Shown piece by piece: positions 2,138 to 9,744 of a DNA stretch of 53,563 nucleotides. The position numbers and the translations under genes were made by a program. Within the stretch, counting starts at the first letter, position 1, and every line of letters begins with the position of its first letter. The notes under the pieces are model-generated. The model did no database searches and had not been told where the DNA came from. It was given only the letters and a program-made list of their open reading frames with translations. This stretch comes from Candidatus Methanoperedens sp. (lineage in GTDB: Archaea; Halobacteriota; Methanosarcinia; Methanosarcinales; Methanoperedenaceae): positions 1-53,563 of the forward strand of contig JAQUNZ010000008.1 in assembly GCA_028717345.1 (NCBI GenBank), read 5' to 3'.

Positions 2138-2159
2138 TTATGTGGAATATGGACAGCTT

Positions 2160-2210
2160 TGCACTTAAAGTTACACTTGCACCTAAAGTCATGAAGTTGC
2201 ATCTAAAATA
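2160..2210 (+). repeat. Left array of three 13-bp TGCACCTAAAGTC-like motifs
   Basis: Three variants of one 13-mer lie in direct orientation: TGCACTTAAAGTT at 2160, TGCACCTAAAGTC at 2178 and TGCATCTAAAATA at 2198, spaced 18 and 20 nt, roughly two helical turns. Related copies occur again at 3791-3848, on the far side of a three-gene AT-rich block. A small palindrome TTTATC-AGATAT-GATAAA follows at 2214-2231. Regularly spaced short repeats at both ends of a block resemble transposase-binding-site arrays such as those of IS21 or Tn7-type ends, but no transposase is present. Confidence 0.6.
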
Positions 2211-2414
2211 AAGTTTATCAGATATGATAAAAGCAAAGCTTGGCGATTGACTAAGGTCTAAGAATCCTATCGCAAAGAGAAGAGTTATTATGCAAGCTGA
2301 TACACAAGTGGTATGAATTGAGGAGAGACCCAACTTCTATATAAAATCAGATATAACAATCAATGAAAAATCATAATCGATTATTTTTCTGGCGGTATCC
2401 TTTCCTAGAAATTT

Positions 2415-2768
2415 TTAAACAAGTGTTTTTAATTTAGGAAAATCAATACTGAATAGTTTTAGAAATTCTGCATCAGTTAATACATTTGACATCTCAGGAT
2501 GATATCTTGCAATTTGACTGTAATTTTCTAATCTTTTATATGAAGTAAACACCTCGCTAGACATTTTTTTGCTATAGTGTTTCCTTCGTTCGTCATGGTT
2601 GTTGATTATTGTTTTCCCTTTTCTTGCAATATAAGCATCCCCAAAATGAAGTGCAGAATAATATAAAACAACAAATTTCCAATCAATAAATTCTGAGCTA
2701 TTTCCCAGAGTATTTAAAAATTGTTCGTTGTGTTCCCCTTGCAATTTATGTTGCATTTCATTTGCCAA
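2415..2768 (-). CDS. Small HEPN-like protein of unknown function
   Basis: This 117-residue protein is predicted to be all helical. The segments WKFVVLYYSALHFGDAYIA, then HDERRKHY, then YKRLENYSQIARY follow the pattern of small HEPN-fold proteins: a tryptophan and tyrosine-rich helix, a central H..R segment, and a final L...S..ARY helix. The canonical HEPN RNase motif R-x4-6-H is not evident, so RNase activity is not claimed. It is the last gene of a three-gene minus-strand run, 21 bp after the 154-aa protein. The AT-rich codon use differs from the flanking argF and flavodoxin genes and suggests acquisition. Toxin, antitoxin-partner or nucleic-acid-processing roles are possible, but none is shown. 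Confidence 0.6.
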   Translation of the reverse strand: MANEMQHKLQGEHNEQFLNTLGNSSEFIDWKFVVLYYSALHFGDAYIARKGKTIINNHDERRKHYSKKMSSEVFTSYKRLENYSQIARYHPEMSNVLTDAEFLKLFSIDFPKLKTLV

Positions 2769-2789
2769 TGCAATATACCTCCATTAATT

Positions 2790-3254
2790 TCATATAGGCA
2801 ACACAAGAAAATCAATATCGGTCTTTAATTTTCTTAATAGATTATATTCGATTCGGAAAATTTTCGCTTCAATTTCTCGATTCATTTCTGATAATCTGAT
2901 TATTATAGTAGGGGTCTCAAGTTCCTCTAACTCGATTTCACCTACAAGAGGAATACGTTTAATTTTGGCAAGTGACTCTTCCAACACGCTCCTATCATTC
3001 ATATTTAGTTTATTCATAAACTTTTTCAAAGGATTAGAAGTTTCAACTGTTCGAATTGGTATATCTGTTTTATGAAGGCAAAGATATTCCTTTAATTCAT
3101 GCGCCTGTATTGGATTATAATATAAGCAAAGTGGATTCGCCGATGGAGAAACTACCCTAAATTCTTGAACAATGTTCTGCGGCCCAACAGATGTTTTAAA
3201 GGATGGTCTAAAAGACGACTCTCCGGGACTTTTAAACAAAGGACGATATTTCAT
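2790..3254 (-). CDS. Hypothetical 154-aa protein in AT-rich island
   Basis: I do not recognise this family. The N-terminal 30 residues are basic and poor in structure (KYRPLFKSPGESSFRPSFK). The C-terminal half is an alternating strand/helix pattern ending REIEAKIFRIEYNLLRKL-TDIDFLVLPI. It starts 1 bp after the stop of the upstream 112-aa gene and runs into the HEPN-like gene, so the three are probably one transcript. The low-GC composition matches those neighbours and not the chromosome around it. A partner role for the HEPN-like protein is inference from adjacency alone. Confidence 0.55.
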   Translation of the reverse strand: MKYRPLFKSPGESSFRPSFKTSVGPQNIVQEFRVVSPSANPLCLYYNPIQAHELKEYLCLHKTDIPIRTVETSNPLKKFMNKLNMNDRSVLEESLAKIKRIPLVGEIELEELETPTIIIRLSEMNREIEAKIFRIEYNLLRKLKTDIDFLVLPI

Positions 3255-3255
3255 A

Positions 3256-3594
3256 TCACTTCTCTTGTTCCTTAATATCTCTAACTTCTACAGACGCTTT
3301 TTTCACACTTGGTTTCTTTTCAATATCTTTAACAACTTCAGACAATACAGTTACTATTTCATTTAATGCAGAATTAGGCACGATTATGTCTGCTTTTATA
3401 ACCTTCTCTGTATTCACAGGTTCACTATTACTACCAGTAATATTTAGGTAATGATTGAGACATATAATCCTAGTAACATGTTCGTCTGTTGTTATATTTA
3501 CGCCGTCTATATATATCTCTTTCCAATCTGGGCTTCTCACAGTTTTGATTTTTGAACTTTTTTCTGTGATGGTTTTCTTAGCCAACTTAGCCAT
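3256..3594 (-). CDS. Hypothetical 112-aa protein, first gene of AT-rich island
   Basis: The protein opens with a lysine-rich stretch (MAKLAKKTITEKSSKIKT). Its core reads as short strands (EIYIDGVNITTDE, TRIICLNHYLNI, KADIIVPNSALNEIVTVLSEVV) and its tail is charged and helical. The arrangement faintly recalls small DUF3467-type proteins, but this is only an impression. The start ATG at 3594 is preceded by TAAGGAGG, a strong Shine-Dalgarno in the first gene of the three-gene operon. No homologue is recognised with confidence, so function is unassigned. Confidence 0.55.
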   Translation of the reverse strand: MAKLAKKTITEKSSKIKTVRSPDWKEIYIDGVNITTDEHVTRIICLNHYLNITGSNSEPVNTEKVIKADIIVPNSALNEIVTVLSEVVKDIEKKPSVKKASVEVRDIKEQEK

Positions 3595-3790
3595 CGTAAA
3601 TCCTCCTTAAAAAACTAAACCAATATTTACAAAGAGAACTTAATCTCTATAAATAGGTTTCCAATTTTTGTTTAGGATTGATGATTCCTCTAGAAATACT
3701 TTTGTTTTTAGACAGTTATGTTCTGCTCTAACTATGACTACCAAACGAGTGGTGTCTTTATCACACTTTGCATATGAAGTGTCATTTGCT

Positions 3791-3848
3791 TGAACCTAAA
3801 GTCAACCGTTTGCACCTTAAGTCGCTCCAAAACGGTACTTTAGATGCA
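3791..3848 (+). repeat. Right array of the 13-bp motif, two direct and one inverted copy
   Basis: TGAACCTAAAGTC (3791) and TGCACCTTAAGTC (3811) are direct copies 20 nt apart. TACTTTAGATGCA (3836-3848) is an inverted copy, reading TGCATCTAAAGTA on the other strand. They match the left array at 2160-2210 on the far side of the island. Just upstream, ACACTT-tgcatatg-AAGTGT (3763-3782) is a hairpin-forming inverted repeat. The rest of 3595-3955 holds no gene, only a T-rich stretch and the flavodoxin promoter. Confidence 0.6.
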
Positions 3849-3868
3849 AAGCTAAAATGGACGAAAGG

Positions 3869-4437: not shown

Positions 4438-7400
4438 TTAGGAATAAGTCTTATCAGGGTATGTGTGGCAGTAGTTACAATCATAGGTTTTTCCATAACC
4501 GTACTGGGCTGTGGCATTATTGTATAATCCTGTATCATGGCACGATGTGCAAATAGTGTTATTCACGACATTCTGCGCAGGGGTTCCTGTAATATTATGC
4601 CTGTCCCTGTCATTAATTGGGTCCTTCTGGTAGGAATGGCAGTCCTCACAGGCTTTCCTTGCTGCGATGTTCTTATGTCCTTTCGTATGGCAGTCCTCAC
4701 ATGCCAGTGAACCATGCGCGCTGCTGTTATACATGCTCTGGTTCACGAACTTTTCCGCTGCACCCAATGTGCTCATGTATGAATAAGAGTAGTGGCAGCC
4801 CGTGCATATCCCGGTTCCTGTGCTGACGTTATGCATGAACCCATCAATCCTGGTGCCGTTGGGCAGGAATGCGCCATGACATTCTTTGCATGTTGAGTCG
4901 CTATAATCAGGCGATAGTGTATGGTTGAAATAGCCGTTTTTACTATACGGTGCAAAGGAAGAATGGTTGCTGATCTCAGGCGGAACTGACATGTTCTCTC
5001 CTTGGAAGGTCAGCACCATATTGTTGTAGTTCATCGCACCACTTGTATATCCCTGATAGTGGCAGCCTGAGCACCAGTTGCTGTTGTTGGCGATCGAGGA
5101 ATTAATGATATTAAGACCGCTCCAGTTTGCAGGTCTTCCCAATGCGTTCTCGCTGTGCCTGCTATCACCGTGACAGTAGTTACACATGCTCTGCTGGCTG
5201 GTATTTGTCCAGTAGGTTTTAGTCAGGTTCCATCGGGAACCATTACTGATATCATCGCTGTGATGCATGGATGGTATTCCGGAAGCGTTCGAAAAGTTTG
5301 CTATACCGGTCTGGTGGCATAAGATGCAATTGGCAGCAGTTGAATTGCTGGTATTGAAGATCCCATCAGTCTGCAAGTATTTAACAGGATGAATGTCTTT
5401 GCCATCATTCATGTGGCATTCTTTGCAATTGACAGAATTGTTATGTTTGTTCTTTGTTCCTGTGGTTATACCACTGTAATTTGCTGTGCCACTGCTGCTA
5501 TTTAATCCATGGCAATTCAGGCAGTATGAACTGTTATAGACTGTGCCTGGCATGATCAAACTTCTTCCATGAAGCGTTTCACCTGTACTGTTATGGCACT
5601 GAACAAGACCGCATGAAGGATTGGATGCATTGTATCTGGCGCTGTGGTTGGATATGCTGCTGTTTGACGCATACATGAATGTCCTGTTAAACTCACCCGT
5701 ACCGTTCCTGTGACAGTATAAACAGTATGCATCGCTTCCTCTGGTCTTCCCAAAACTAAGCTGGCTTTTTCCGTAGTGATAAGCGCTGGTACTTCCTCCT
5801 GTAACCGATATGTTGTCGCCCGCAAATGAGCCCGTATCGTTATCATTATTCGGTAACAGCATGCCAGATACATTTTCATGGCATTCGATACACGAAGCAA
5901 TGTCGCTTGTCCTGTTACCCAGAGCCCTGATAGCTGTCCCGTTCTTGAAATGGTTGGAAATGATCGTTGCATTATACGCCCCTGCCCTGCTCCCGTTCGC
6001 AAGATGACAGTCAGTACAGATGAACGGCGTGGTCTTCCTGTCAGGATGCGTGTTACTAGGGACTACCGTTCCAGTTGAATTGTGGCACGCCCAGCAGCTT
6101 GCATTGATTCCGTATCCTGATGCGTTATTGACATTCATATTAGCATGAGTTGACCTGCTGAAGTTGCCGCCGTCGATGTAATGCATGCCTGTGACGTTCT
6201 GGGGACTGCTCGTGTTATGGCATCCAAGACATCCAGGTCCACCTGAACTGCCGCTTCCAAGAGCTGCTTTATGGAACGTGAAACCCCCCACAATAGCGTA
6301 ATTGCCGTGACAAGTGGGGCAGTTGCTGCTTGAGGTGTAAGTAGTGTGGTCTAATCCTCCTCCGGAGGCGTTCTTATTGCTGATGTTCGCCCTGCTACCC
6401 GGCAGTATCCCCCATTTTTGCATATTGGAACTGTTCCTGTGGCAGTAAACGCAGTCAGTGCTGTTGCTCGTGGTGCTCATCAGCCTGCCAGCCGTCCTGT
6501 TCGCGCCATAGTGCGAAACCGATGCATTTACAGGGCTACCCCCGCTAACTCCCATACTCGCATCGTAAGCATCTATCAGGCTGTTATTATGGCAATACGA
6601 ACAGTAAGTGTTTGTGTAGGAGGATGTATTCACATCAGTGTACGGTGAGAGTCCTGAAGGTATGTGGTCAGTAACATTCCCTGCACCGAACAGAGCGAAT
6701 GTATCGTTATGGCAGTCATAGCACTTTCTGGGCTTATTATAAACCGATGTGTTGTGTTCTTCCACAGGCTGGTCGCTCTCGTTCGCCCATGTGCCGTTCT
6801 TGGTACCATGGCATGCCCAGCACGGTCTGTTACTGGCATTGGCAGGTGTGGAAACCGCACCACTATTCAGGAAAGCGTGCATTCCCAAGTTCAATGCTGT
6901 AAAATTGACATTGTCCGCAGAACCTCCTGTATTGTGGCAGTTCGTACAGTTGACCCCACCCGATGTTCCCACAGCTACAGCATGCATGAAACTGGTTATG
7001 TTCTCACTACTGGCAGGCCCCCCATGACAGCTCTTGCACTTTGCATCGTTCTTTGCATAGGAACTGTGGTTGATATAAGCCGCACTGGTGCCTGTGATAT
7101 TGCCATAGGTCGCATTCCCGGTTATCTCAGGCGGTACTGTTCTGTTATCTTCATTGAATGTGCCAACCATTATATAATAATCCGGACTTCCCTGCCAGTG
7201 GCACTGCTGGCACCATGTTAAGGAAGATGAGATCGATCCGTTCACACGATTCCCCCCGCTGAATAGCGAGGGTCTTCCGAGGGCGCTTATTTTGTGCATC
7301 GTTTCGCCATGGCAGTATTTGCACCTCTGGATCTGTGATGTGTTCGTCCAGTATGGTCTTGTCTGGGTCCACTTGCTACCGTTTCTGATATCATCACTGT

Positions 7401-9744
7401 GCACCACGGATACAGGAACCTGCGGTGCATTTCTGCCCGTATATTTCCCGGTTTTGGGTATATTGCTCAACACGCCCATGAAAGTGGAGTTCTGGTGGCA
7501 CTTCGTGCAATCGCCCCTTGCCGGACTGTTAGTATTTACATAAGTGGATCCACCAAAGACCTGAATATAATGCACATCATCGCTGTGGCAGAGCGTACAG
7601 TTCACGCTGGCGTTATGCTGGCTGTAACCTGAATGGCAGGTTGTGCATTGGGAATCTTCGGTATTATTATTCCCTATAAACCTCTGTGTATCGTCTGGTT
7701 TTGTGATATTGTGCATCGGACCGTGACATATTATGCAGGGTACCGTGGAGTTAGGGGTGTGGTAATCGTCATATATCCCGCCTGATGAACTGTTGGAATA
7801 ATTGCTGACCACGCCATTCAAGGTGGACTTCATTGAGATATCTGTTCTTAAAGGATGGCATCTGGCACTTGTACAGGAACCTATAGTCATGTTTCCAGCT
7901 TTATGGTTGGTATAAAAAGGAACACCGGGGTCATGGCATGATGCATTATCACAGCGTATGTTTCTGTGGACATCAGGCGAGTAAAAATCTTTTGCTGTAC
8001 CATTTATAGCGTTGCTGGTTGTGGGATTACCGTCGTAGTTTTGATGGCACACTGTGCACCAGTTCTGTCCCCAGCCCGCACCCGTCAGACTCTCGTGTTG
8101 AGCATTACCGCCTGATCCTGCTATCATTTCCCAGCTTGCAGTGTATGGTGAATTGGGAGCGGCTGTGCCCGCTTGGTTAGGATTCACTCCACCATGCCCT
8201 CTACAGCTACCTCCCCAGGCGCATCCCCACCAGTTATAGATAAAACTGCTATTCTTGGAAATGCCGCTGTAATCTGCCTTGACCGTCCAGTTTCCCCAGT
8301 AATTCGCACCGCTGAGGTCTTTATAAAAACTTGCAACGCCAGAAGAATCAGTTACGCTTGTTCCTGTGGCGTAAGTACCGCCTGGCCTAAATATTGTGAA
8401 GTTGACTGTTTTCGATTGAAGAGGTGTGCCGTTGCTATCTATCAATAATGCTTTCGCGCCAATTGTGGTTTGCTTGTTAGTAAAAAAATCACTTGTAGTA
8501 ACATCGGCTGAATTTGGCACGACATAATTGGTAGATGCATTCCCTGACTGCCAGTCATCAAGCACCACATACCTGTCGGTCGCGACCAATATCTTATTCT
8601 GCCCTCCCGTACCTCCCGACACCGCAAATGGCGACAGCGAGGTCGTAGTCGCCGTAAGCACATTATTCGCCGCATCCACCGTTGTCGGCAGTGCATCCCA
8701 TGCAGTGCCGTTCCAGTGATATATAACAAGGCTGTTCTCAGAAACACCATTGAGTTCAGCTTCCTTGTATCGCACGCTTACCTGTGCCGATGAAAATGAA
8801 ATGCCCTGAACCCCGATCTCCACGAATTTGACCGGTCTGCCTGGAAGCGGGACAGAGACCGGGTTTTTCCTGCCGTAGTCGTCAAGTATGACTTCTCCGC
8901 CTGTCGCTGCATTTACTTTCAGCCTTAGAGCCACGTTTTTAGATGTAATGGCATCCACTTCAAGCTCACCTCCGGGAGGGATATCCTGTGCTACAAGACT
9001 GCTTGATCTTCCTGATTTTTTCAGGTCTCTTGCATTATCATAAGTCCTGATATCGCTCCTGACATGTGTGCTCCCAGCATCGAGTATGTCTATCTGCCCC
9101 GGAAGCCTTGCGCTCACGGCAAAAATGGAAAGTGAGTCCACAGAAGCGGTAAGGAGTTCGTCTTTCGCATCGATTTTTGTTTTTAAGCTGCTCCATGCCT
9201 TCATTGTACGGTTATAGTGGTAGATCTTAAGTGAATTCTCATCAATATTTCCCAGTTCAGAAGCGTTGTACTTTATACTTATCTCAGCTTCCACAAAAGA
9301 AATGTTGAGCGCGCTTACCTGAACGTATTTTACAGGTGTTCCGGGCGCTGGTTCATTCAGGGCTTTCGGAAGCTCTGTGCCATAGTTTTCAATGACGACA
9401 TTTGCGTTCCTGGAGTCCCCTCCAAGCCTGAATTTTACTGATACGTTCTTTATACCGAGTGCATCAAAATAAATTATGCCGTTCGGGATCTTCGTCCATT
9501 TTATGAAGTTGACATTTTCCTTATACCCGCCCGATATACCCGAACCGCTAATGCCGATAGCGCCGCTTATGGGATTACCTGAAATGTCAGCAAATGTTAT
9601 GTCGCCGTGTGTCAGTTCCTCCGCGGTGCGCGTCGGAATAGGCGGGTAATACAAAAAGGCTGTAGCTAACCCTGACAGAATTATGAACGTCAATATGACA
9701 TGCCGTATATTTGCATGTCCAGTCTTATCGCCTAAAACGCTCAT
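4438..9744 (-). CDS. Giant secreted multiheme c-type cytochrome (33 heme motifs)
   Basis: This 1,768-residue extracytoplasmic cytochrome is likely to move electrons out of the cell. An N-terminal hydrophobic segment (about residues 14-34, HVILTFIILSGLATAFLYY) is a signal or anchor. Two copies of a PGF-pre-PGF-type domain follow (about 130-210 and 290-375; compare ISFVEAEISIKYNASELG and ISFSSAQVSVRYKEAELN), then an Ig-like domain (about 420-480). From about residue 560 to the C-terminus I count by eye 30 CxxCH and 3 CxxxxCH heme sites, 33 in all. Two heme-rich blocks (about 775-940 and 1490-1655) are visibly duplicated. N-x-S/T sequons are very dense, consistent with surface glycosylation. There is no C-terminal membrane anchor. 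AAGG lies 8 nt before the ATG. It stands alone, transcribed towards the flavodoxin. Confidence 0.93.
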   Translation of the reverse strand: MSVLGDKTGHANIRHVILTFIILSGLATAFLYYPPIPTRTAEELTHGDITFADISGNPISGAIGISGSGISGGYKENVNFIKWTKIPNGIIYFDALGIKNVSVKFRLGGDSRNANVVIENYGTELPKALNEPAPGTPVKYVQVSALNISFVEAEISIKYNASELGNIDENSLKIYHYNRTMKAWSSLKTKIDAKDELLTASVDSLSIFAVSARLPGQIDILDAGSTHVRSDIRTYDNARDLKKSGRSSSLVAQDIPPGGELEVDAITSKNVALRLKVNAATGGEVILDDYGRKNPVSVPLPGRPVKFVEIGVQGISFSSAQVSVRYKEAELNGVSENSLVIYHWNGTAWDALPTTVDAANNVLTATTTSLSPFAVSGGTGGQNKILVATDRYVVLDDWQSGNASTNYVVPNSADVTTSDFFTNKQTTIGAKALLIDSNGTPLQSKTVNFTIFRPGGTYATGTSVTDSSGVASFYKDLSGANYWGNWTVKADYSGISKNSSFIYNWWGCAWGGSCRGHGGVNPNQAGTAAPNSPYTASWEMIAGSGGNAQHESLTGAGWGQNWCTVCHQNYDGNPTTSNAINGTAKDFYSPDVHRNIRCDNASCHDPGVPFYTNHKAGNMTIGSCTSARCHPLRTDISMKSTLNGVVSNYSNSSSGGIYDDYHTPNSTVPCIICHGPMHNITKPDDTQRFIGNNNTEDSQCTTCHSGYSQHNASVNCTLCHSDDVHYIQVFGGSTYVNTNSPARGDCTKCHQNSTFMGVLSNIPKTGKYTGRNAPQVPVSVVHSDDIRNGSKWTQTRPYWTNTSQIQRCKYCHGETMHKISALGRPSLFSGGNRVNGSISSSLTWCQQCHWQGSPDYYIMVGTFNEDNRTVPPEITGNATYGNITGTSAAYINHSSYAKNDAKCKSCHGGPASSENITSFMHAVAVGTSGGVNCTNCHNTGGSADNVNFTALNLGMHAFLNSGAVSTPANASNRPCWACHGTKNGTWANESDQPVEEHNTSVYNKPRKCYDCHNDTFALFGAGNVTDHIPSGLSPYTDVNTSSYTNTYCSYCHNNSLIDAYDASMGVSGGSPVNASVSHYGANRTAGRLMSTTSNSTDCVYCHRNSSNMQKWGILPGSRANISNKNASGGGLDHTTYTSSSNCPTCHGNYAIVGGFTFHKAALGSGSSGGPGCLGCHNTSSPQNVTGMHYIDGGNFSRSTHANMNVNNASGYGINASCWACHNSTGTVVPSNTHPDRKTTPFICTDCHLANGSRAGAYNATIISNHFKNGTAIRALGNRTSDIASCIECHENVSGMLLPNNDNDTGSFAGDNISVTGGSTSAYHYGKSQLSFGKTRGSDAYCLYCHRNGTGEFNRTFMYASNSSISNHSARYNASNPSCGLVQCHNSTGETLHGRSLIMPGTVYNSSYCLNCHGLNSSSGTANYSGITTGTKNKHNNSVNCKECHMNDGKDIHPVKYLQTDGIFNTSNSTAANCILCHQTGIANFSNASGIPSMHHSDDISNGSRWNLTKTYWTNTSQQSMCNYCHGDSRHSENALGRPANWSGLNIINSSIANNSNWCSGCHYQGYTSGAMNYNNMVLTFQGENMSVPPEISNHSSFAPYSKNGYFNHTLSPDYSDSTCKECHGAFLPNGTRIDGFMHNVSTGTGICTGCHYSYSYMSTLGAAEKFVNQSMYNSSAHGSLACEDCHTKGHKNIAARKACEDCHSYQKDPINDRDRHNITGTPAQNVVNNTICTSCHDTGLYNNATAQYGYGKTYDCNYCHTYPDKTYS

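Follow-up and report, generated by a model that had tools for sequence, protein, structure and literature searches.

The stretch of DNA analysed here (the window; 53,563 nucleotides of a Candidatus Methanoperedens contig) contains, beside a tRNA-Leu gene at 2052–2138, an AT-rich island of three minus-strand genes with copies of a 13-bp motif on both sides. This raises the question of whether the island is a mobile unit and, if so, which enzyme moves it. A sequence-only reading had placed the island at 2160–3848 and had taken its flanks for transposase-binding ends lacking a transposase. According to our analysis, the segment 2155–3853 is very probably a non-autonomous, cargo-bearing DNA transposon, most likely moved by an IS5-like transposase of the SWIM-DDE_Tnp_1 type when present in the cell.

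The limits of the unit are set by a 17-bp inverted repeat, AGCTTTGCACTTAAAGT / ACTTTAGATGCAAAGCT, revealed by repeat detection in the window at 2155–2171 (plus strand) and 3837–3853 (minus strand; reverse complement AGCTTTGCATCTAAAGT) with 88% complementarity, which gives an element of 1699 bp. The AT-rich island itself was confirmed (G+C of 0.33 vs. 0.45 for the whole window), but these repeats shift its limits outward from 2160 and 3848. All six motif copies lie where they had been reported, on the plus strand at 2160, 2178 and 2198 (0–3 mismatches) and at 3791 and 3811, and on the minus strand at 3836–3848. According to the repeat detection, copies of the direct motif stand inside both inverted repeats; the layout is asymmetric, with three direct copies on the left and, on the right, two direct copies followed by an inverted one. 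The left terminal inverted repeat (TIR), which holds the first copy, is identical in sequence at the ends of sister elements; it is followed on the plus strand by an exact copy (TGCACCTAAAGTC, 2178–2190) and a degenerate one with 3 mismatches (2198–2210). The two right subterminal copies, at 3791–3803 and 3811–3823 on the plus strand, have 1 mismatch each. In the sister elements, some of which have lost copies, the left end has the motif at +6, +24 and +44, and the right end has it at −62 and −42 and in the inverted TIR; the left copies of the window at +24 and +44 (with the 20-nt spacing of the sisters) and the right copies at −62 and −42 recur at these positions. R2, a right-end model built only from elements of this genus, gave 64.8 bits at 3787–3853, this same end being one of its 11 training rows.

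Directly outside 2155–3853, a 9-bp target-site duplication of the kind that had been anticipated was found, with AATATGGAC at 2146–2154 and AAAATGGAC adjoining the right inverted repeat at 3854–3862 (8/9 identical, 1 mismatch). End-like places were gathered from the 31 genomes of the genus, the loci were fetched, and all TIR pairs were tested, 99 in total from the window and genus loci L099–L165. At offset 0, 20 of the 99 pairs had a 9-bp duplication when up to 2 mismatches were allowed (7 exact, 11 with one mismatch, including that of the window, and 2 with two); elsewhere in the range from −40 to +40, the 80 offsets gave counts of 0–5, mostly 0. The value of 20/99 is not a success rate, since some of the 99 pairs are not true partners.

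The genus thus holds 20 elements of 68–5015 bp, that of the window included, with common ends, 9-bp duplications and differing cargo. L103 carries a TetR gene with a MacB/FtsX efflux operon, L117 a type I methylase and a specificity gene, L122 genes for an HD protein and its small partner, and L148 an OMP-decarboxylase-like gene; other sister elements carry genes of unassigned function or no cargo at all. No transposase was found by Pfam among 20 of the larger cargo proteins, 17 from sister loci and the three of the window; three of the 17 come from L112, L115 and a wide reading of L143, where the duplications are not clear. The right end by itself can form a minimal element: copies of 68 bp at L126 (5051–5118) and L132 (4135–4202) contain nothing else and have their own target duplications. 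R2 matches at E ≤ 1e-6 occur in 53 of the class's 237 genomes, including 18 of the genus's 31; in the genome of the window, a second right end, a partial one, lies at G000:C82. Two further observations were made: a transposase gene pair lies near the ends at L099 and L154, and an IS1-like element interrupts a restriction-modification gene at L167 (about 1442–2622). An IS1-like transposase beside a TIR at L140 (G045:C243) was considered as a partner and rejected, because the similarity among its relatives begins about 12 nt before the ATG, which leaves the TIR outside that IS.

These data also bear on a different reading of the arrays, namely that they are operators of a regulator, or another class of repeat, with the island as an AT-rich stretch inserted between them by chance. 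A motif spacing of about 20 nt is possible for operators, and the motif matches with up to 3 mismatches in the whole window (12, against a shuffle mean of 12.84) are no more than expected by chance; 6 of these 12 matches are clustered within the 1699 bp (binomial P = 8e-7). However, the duplications at offset 0 contradict this reading, and the arrays stand at both ends of elements of 68–5015 bp with target duplications, cargo-free minimal copies included, and around transposases as well. As the motifs sit at the ends of elements and not upstream of unrelated genes, we assign a negligible probability to the operator explanation.

The window's transposon carries three minus-strand ORFs, at 2415–2768 (117 aa, TTG start), 2790–3254 (154 aa) and 3256–3594 (112 aa), as had been described. 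No transposase was found among them (Pfam, NCBIfam, PADLOC), and no family match above cut-off was obtained in Pfam, NCBIfam, PADLOC and PHROGs. In these four collections, the 117- and 154-aa proteins had no match, and the 112-aa protein showed a weak similarity to DUF3467, below cut-off (E 0.036; 14.5 bits, cut-off 25). A PDB sequence search returned nothing meaningful and a plasmid search nothing, and the structures predicted for the 117- and 154-aa proteins from two-row alignments were too poor to use (mean pLDDT 42.3 and 38.2). The reading frames are kept in a second genome of the genus (G008), with 83% amino acid identity and a dN/dS of 0.58 for the 117-aa protein, 73% and 0.66 for the 154-aa protein, and an overall dN/dS range of 0.58–0.73, suggesting that the genes are under weak constraint or have undergone a recent relaxation.

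The neighbourhood of the left end offers some observations of its own. The window element and that of L109 begin exactly 16 nt past the 3′ end of a tRNA (Leu and Pro, respectively; 2 of 24 loci), the tRNA-to-element intervals being 2138–2155 in the window and 4688–4705 in L109; these starts may hint at a target preference. The 3′ half of the tRNA-Leu (2091–2138) is copied at L024 (2892–2939), 1.3 kb behind the intact gene, and at L141 (3408–3455), a pattern suggestive of a different island with its integrase attachment site at this tRNA. On the other side of the element, a minus-strand ORF of 1768 aa at 4438–9744 contains many CxxCH motifs and resembles a very large multihaem cytochrome.

Which transposase recognises these ends? 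An IS21- or Tn7-like enzyme had been suggested, and this was not supported: the cognate elements encode an IS5-like transposase with a SWIM-DDE_Tnp_1 organisation. Within the genus, only G021 has a full-length gene of this kind; the gene lies inside one right end, which is located 2.2 kb upstream of it in an unexpected orientation, and its matching counterpart was not found. In G008, a remnant of the gene adjoins a right end. Such ends around a transposase were seen in other genera of the class, and the window's own genome (95.9% complete) gave no SWIM-DDE transposase match. A class-wide search with the SWIM-DDE protein found it in 26 of 237 genomes at E ≤ 1e-20.

R2 was then run on 39 loci comprising SWIM-DDE genes, distant relatives and four viral-collection contigs, and at E < 1e-8 it matched 13 of them: L174 (G008) within the genus and twelve in other families (L191, L192, L195, L197, L198, L205, L208, L209, L210, L213, L214 and L216, of which L198/L214 and L205/L216 are overlapping neighbours, one contig per pair). 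In several of these loci, the start of the right end coincides with the stop codon of the transposase or lies no more than about 20 nt from it; the ends found by R2 include those of transposase-bearing Methanothrix elements, directly behind the SWIM DDE_Tnp_1 gene. A search restricted to SWIM-DDE genes with 700-nt flanks gave no convincing combination of TIR and duplication, because the left end often lies farther off, and wider stretches succeeded: among 20 regions, TIRs with an exact 9-bp duplication surround the transposase in L232, L233, L234, L236, L237 and L238, and L248 has one mismatch. Several of the transposase-bearing loci belong to Methanothrix/Methanosaeta MAGs. The partner elements with exact duplications measure 2.5–5.5 kb in the examples read and carry cargo themselves, with type I restriction genes and a gene for an SDH-type protease as examples, the passenger genes of the Methanothrix elements being placed between the left end and the transposase. 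At L238 (1615–6547), two tandem transposase-bearing copies share the duplication TCTGCATGA, which is either a real tandem or an assembly effect.

The partner transposase matches PF01609 (E 1.8e-20 and 1.5e-23); its best NCBIfam model is IS5_2, at 123.6–138.2 bits and so below the cut-off of 140, and its nearest annotated plasmid relatives are IS5-family transposases with 24–27% identity. The four viral-collection contigs hold a 48% relative of the transposase, and the end models R1 and R2 gave no match on them at E ≤ 1. Likewise, neither the right-end nor the left-end pattern matched the viral contigs (0 matches each), so no viral carrier was seen. As the ends of the window element match those of transposase-bearing relatives, it most likely hitch-hikes on their enzyme. 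The sequence-only reading, which proposed a cargo unit mobilised in trans, is supported by this match, movement in trans itself being inferred from sequence. Its view of transposase-binding ends without a transposase agrees with the TIRs, the duplications, the cargo of the sisters, an element-free site (see below) and the matching ends around a real transposase.

Another candidate for the cognate enzyme is an IS5-like transposase that lacks the SWIM finger, such as that of IS_L184, a DDE_Tnp_1 insertion sequence at L184 (7668–9234; G046:C185). It comes from the same genus, and its TIR (AGCCTTGCACTT, a matching 12-bp repeat) and exact 9-bp duplication (CACCACTTC) are almost those of the window element. 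However, its ends score 7 (left) and 10 (right) of 13 for the motif, where the interior averages 7.6 and reaches at most 9; this is no clear array, whereas the full asymmetric end of the window element matches the SWIM-DDE elements. We therefore consider an enzyme of the IS_L184 type improbable as the cognate one. An internally deleted relative without a visible duplication was also observed at L222 (1063–1934; G016).

The preferred partner, the SWIM-DDE transposase, was followed beyond the genus. Of 80 named loci fetched, 61 were examined with a TIR threshold of 13/18 or better; TIRs with an exact 9-bp duplication surround the gene in 19 of them, with 0–2 at ten control offsets. A 7-bp setting also gives 19, since the 7 bp then matched lie within those 9 bp (nine loci checked). 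All 19 elements begin with GGCTTTG, AGCTTTG or GGCGTTG. The labels of their source MAGs include Methanothrix, Marsarchaeota, Micrarchaeota, Nanoarchaeota, Thermoplasmata, Chloroflexi and Acidobacteriales, and mis-binned contigs are possible among them. The letters past GGCTTTG vary by lineage, and the subterminal copies vary along with them. In 20 elements, that of the window included, the element's own motif scores 9–13 of 13 in the subterminal stretches (12 and 11 in the window element) against an interior mean of 6.8–8.1, and also above the mean for the motifs of other elements; some elements, e.g., L323 and L314, exceed these values only narrowly, with individual interior windows that score equally high. 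A CxC..CxH signature near the N-terminus was present in 52 of the 53 loci checked; the one without it is a truncated match. Three SWIM-less relatives (IS_L184, ISAha1 and ISBvi6) have similar TIRs and, by the same measure, no clear array, with the right end of IS_L184 as the exception at 10; no duplication was seen around the plasmid copies of ISAha1 and ISBvi6.

The history of the window's insertion can be partly read from relatives. In G045:C207, the carbamoyltransferase gene, tRNA-Leu and flavodoxin gene are ordered as in the window and the element is absent, with 93.7% identity over 1123 bp on the left and 89.4% over 540 bp on the right; the empty site that had been expected in a relative thus exists, and the island is not conserved vertically. 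About 24 nt stand where the window has the element. This spacer has diverged, so that the empty site is syntenic, not letter-perfect, and the exact target sequence was not seen intact. In G013 and G023, the next genomes in flavodoxin-gene similarity, no match to the left flank of the window was found in the stretch compared. The element in the window probably inserted long ago and has been resident since.

This raises the alternative that the unit is an ordinary, internally rearranged IS copy in which host DNA took the place of the transposase (a mobile insertion cassette), that it has not moved since it was formed and that its arrays are ballast. The mismatch in the window's duplication, the lack of a transposase match in the host genome and the weakly constrained cargo (dN/dS 0.58–0.73) agree with such immobility. 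However, an 86% identical relative of the window cargo adjoins a right end at another place, in G008:C108, amid different neighbours (a left end was not found there), which indicates that the unit or its ancestor moved after acquiring the cargo. Moreover, the ABC-efflux cargo of L103 has relatives with 85–93% DNA identity at L111, L116, L142 and L152, and so occupies 5 loci in 4 genomes, with flanks that are unlike at the ends compared. We regard an unmoved cassette as rather unlikely, and a transposon served by the SWIM-DDE enzyme remains our preferred reading.

As a kind, the window element is a mobile insertion cassette (MIC), with IS ends around passenger genes. Three traits set it apart from the known kinds: the partner is of the SWIM type, the ends carry asymmetric arrays, and cargo versions that lack a transposase have spread within a single genus. 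In the open-access literature, no description of these elements or of an IS5-like SWIM transposase was found; a prior description is possible, ISfinder being outside the search. The DDE_Tnp_1 catalytic domain of the partner is common to the IS5 family (the IS903-like group, with ISAha1 and ISBvi6 as annotated plasmid examples), IS903 makes a 9-bp target duplication, and the TIRs of ISAha1 (ends GGCTTTGTTGCACAAACC / GGCTTTGTTGCATAAAGC) start with GGCTTTG like those of the partner elements. In contrast to IS5, the partner has an N-terminal SWIM zinc finger, subterminal arrays, kilobases of cargo and an IS5_2 score below cut-off; the two SWIM-less plasmid elements, ISAha1 and ISBvi6, are without arrays and cargo, and the compact single-ORF form of about 1 kb typical of IS5 is not that of the partner elements (2.5–5.5 kb).

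PATEs of Pyrobaculum have IS-type ends flanking passenger genes and no transposase. The same arrangement characterises MICs and the window element, which shares further MIC/PATE features in its three non-transposase ORFs and 9-bp target duplication. It differs from both in the fixed asymmetric arrays at its ends with cargo varying between elements, and in that the genus holds transposase-less copies, the transposase-bearing forms being mostly in other genera. MICs are presented as IS derivatives in PMC3129680. The passenger genes between the left TIR and the transposase in Transporter ISs and IS4-family members (PMC2266710) resemble the arrangement of the Methanothrix SWIM-DDE elements; the transposase group, TIR and duplication are different, and transposase-less versions dominate the genus of the window. 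The sister copies of 68–106 bp are MITE-like, whereas the window element, at 1699 bp, encodes three proteins and has nothing but its ends in common with the autonomous form. Plant Pack-MULEs are transposase-less, hold cargo between TIRs, make a 9-bp duplication and depend on a partner transposase with a SWIM finger; in contrast, a DDE_Tnp_1 and not a Mutator-type domain is present here, with short TIRs plus arrays, and the cargo consists of whole ORFs and operons in the elements read. Tn7-like elements duplicate 5 bp and not 9 bp, and among the proteins scanned the cognate elements encode no TnsABC but a single SWIM-DDE_Tnp_1 and cargo. Nor do they resemble IS21 with its istA/istB, having DDE_Tnp_1 with SWIM and no istB-like match among the cognate-element proteins scanned.

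Taken together, these features permit a putative mechanism to be outlined. The SWIM-DDE transposase would bind the TIR and the arrays as repeated sites, with the SWIM zinc finger as the candidate reader of the arrays, and would cut at the TIRs and insert with a 9-bp stagger. The elements of the genus would have moved while such a transposase, chromosomal or extrachromosomal, was in the cell, and most host genomes may since have lost it or never kept it. More tentatively, and as a possibility somewhat short of even, an unnamed IS5-like branch in archaea and some bacteria may have gained a SWIM finger that reads arrays and synapses distant ends, and its members may hence have become cargo carriers, the Methanoperedens-type ends serving as modular cassettes for efflux, restriction and nucleotide-metabolism genes with an enzyme supplied from elsewhere.

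The occurrence of arrays with SWIM, and the lack of a clear array in three SWIM-less relatives, yields a testable statement on how a transposase handles long cargo. The exact end sequences allow such cargo to be found in genomes. For the methane-cycle archaea, elements of this kind would represent a route by which ordinary genes may be moved without a phage, a plasmid or a transposase of their own.
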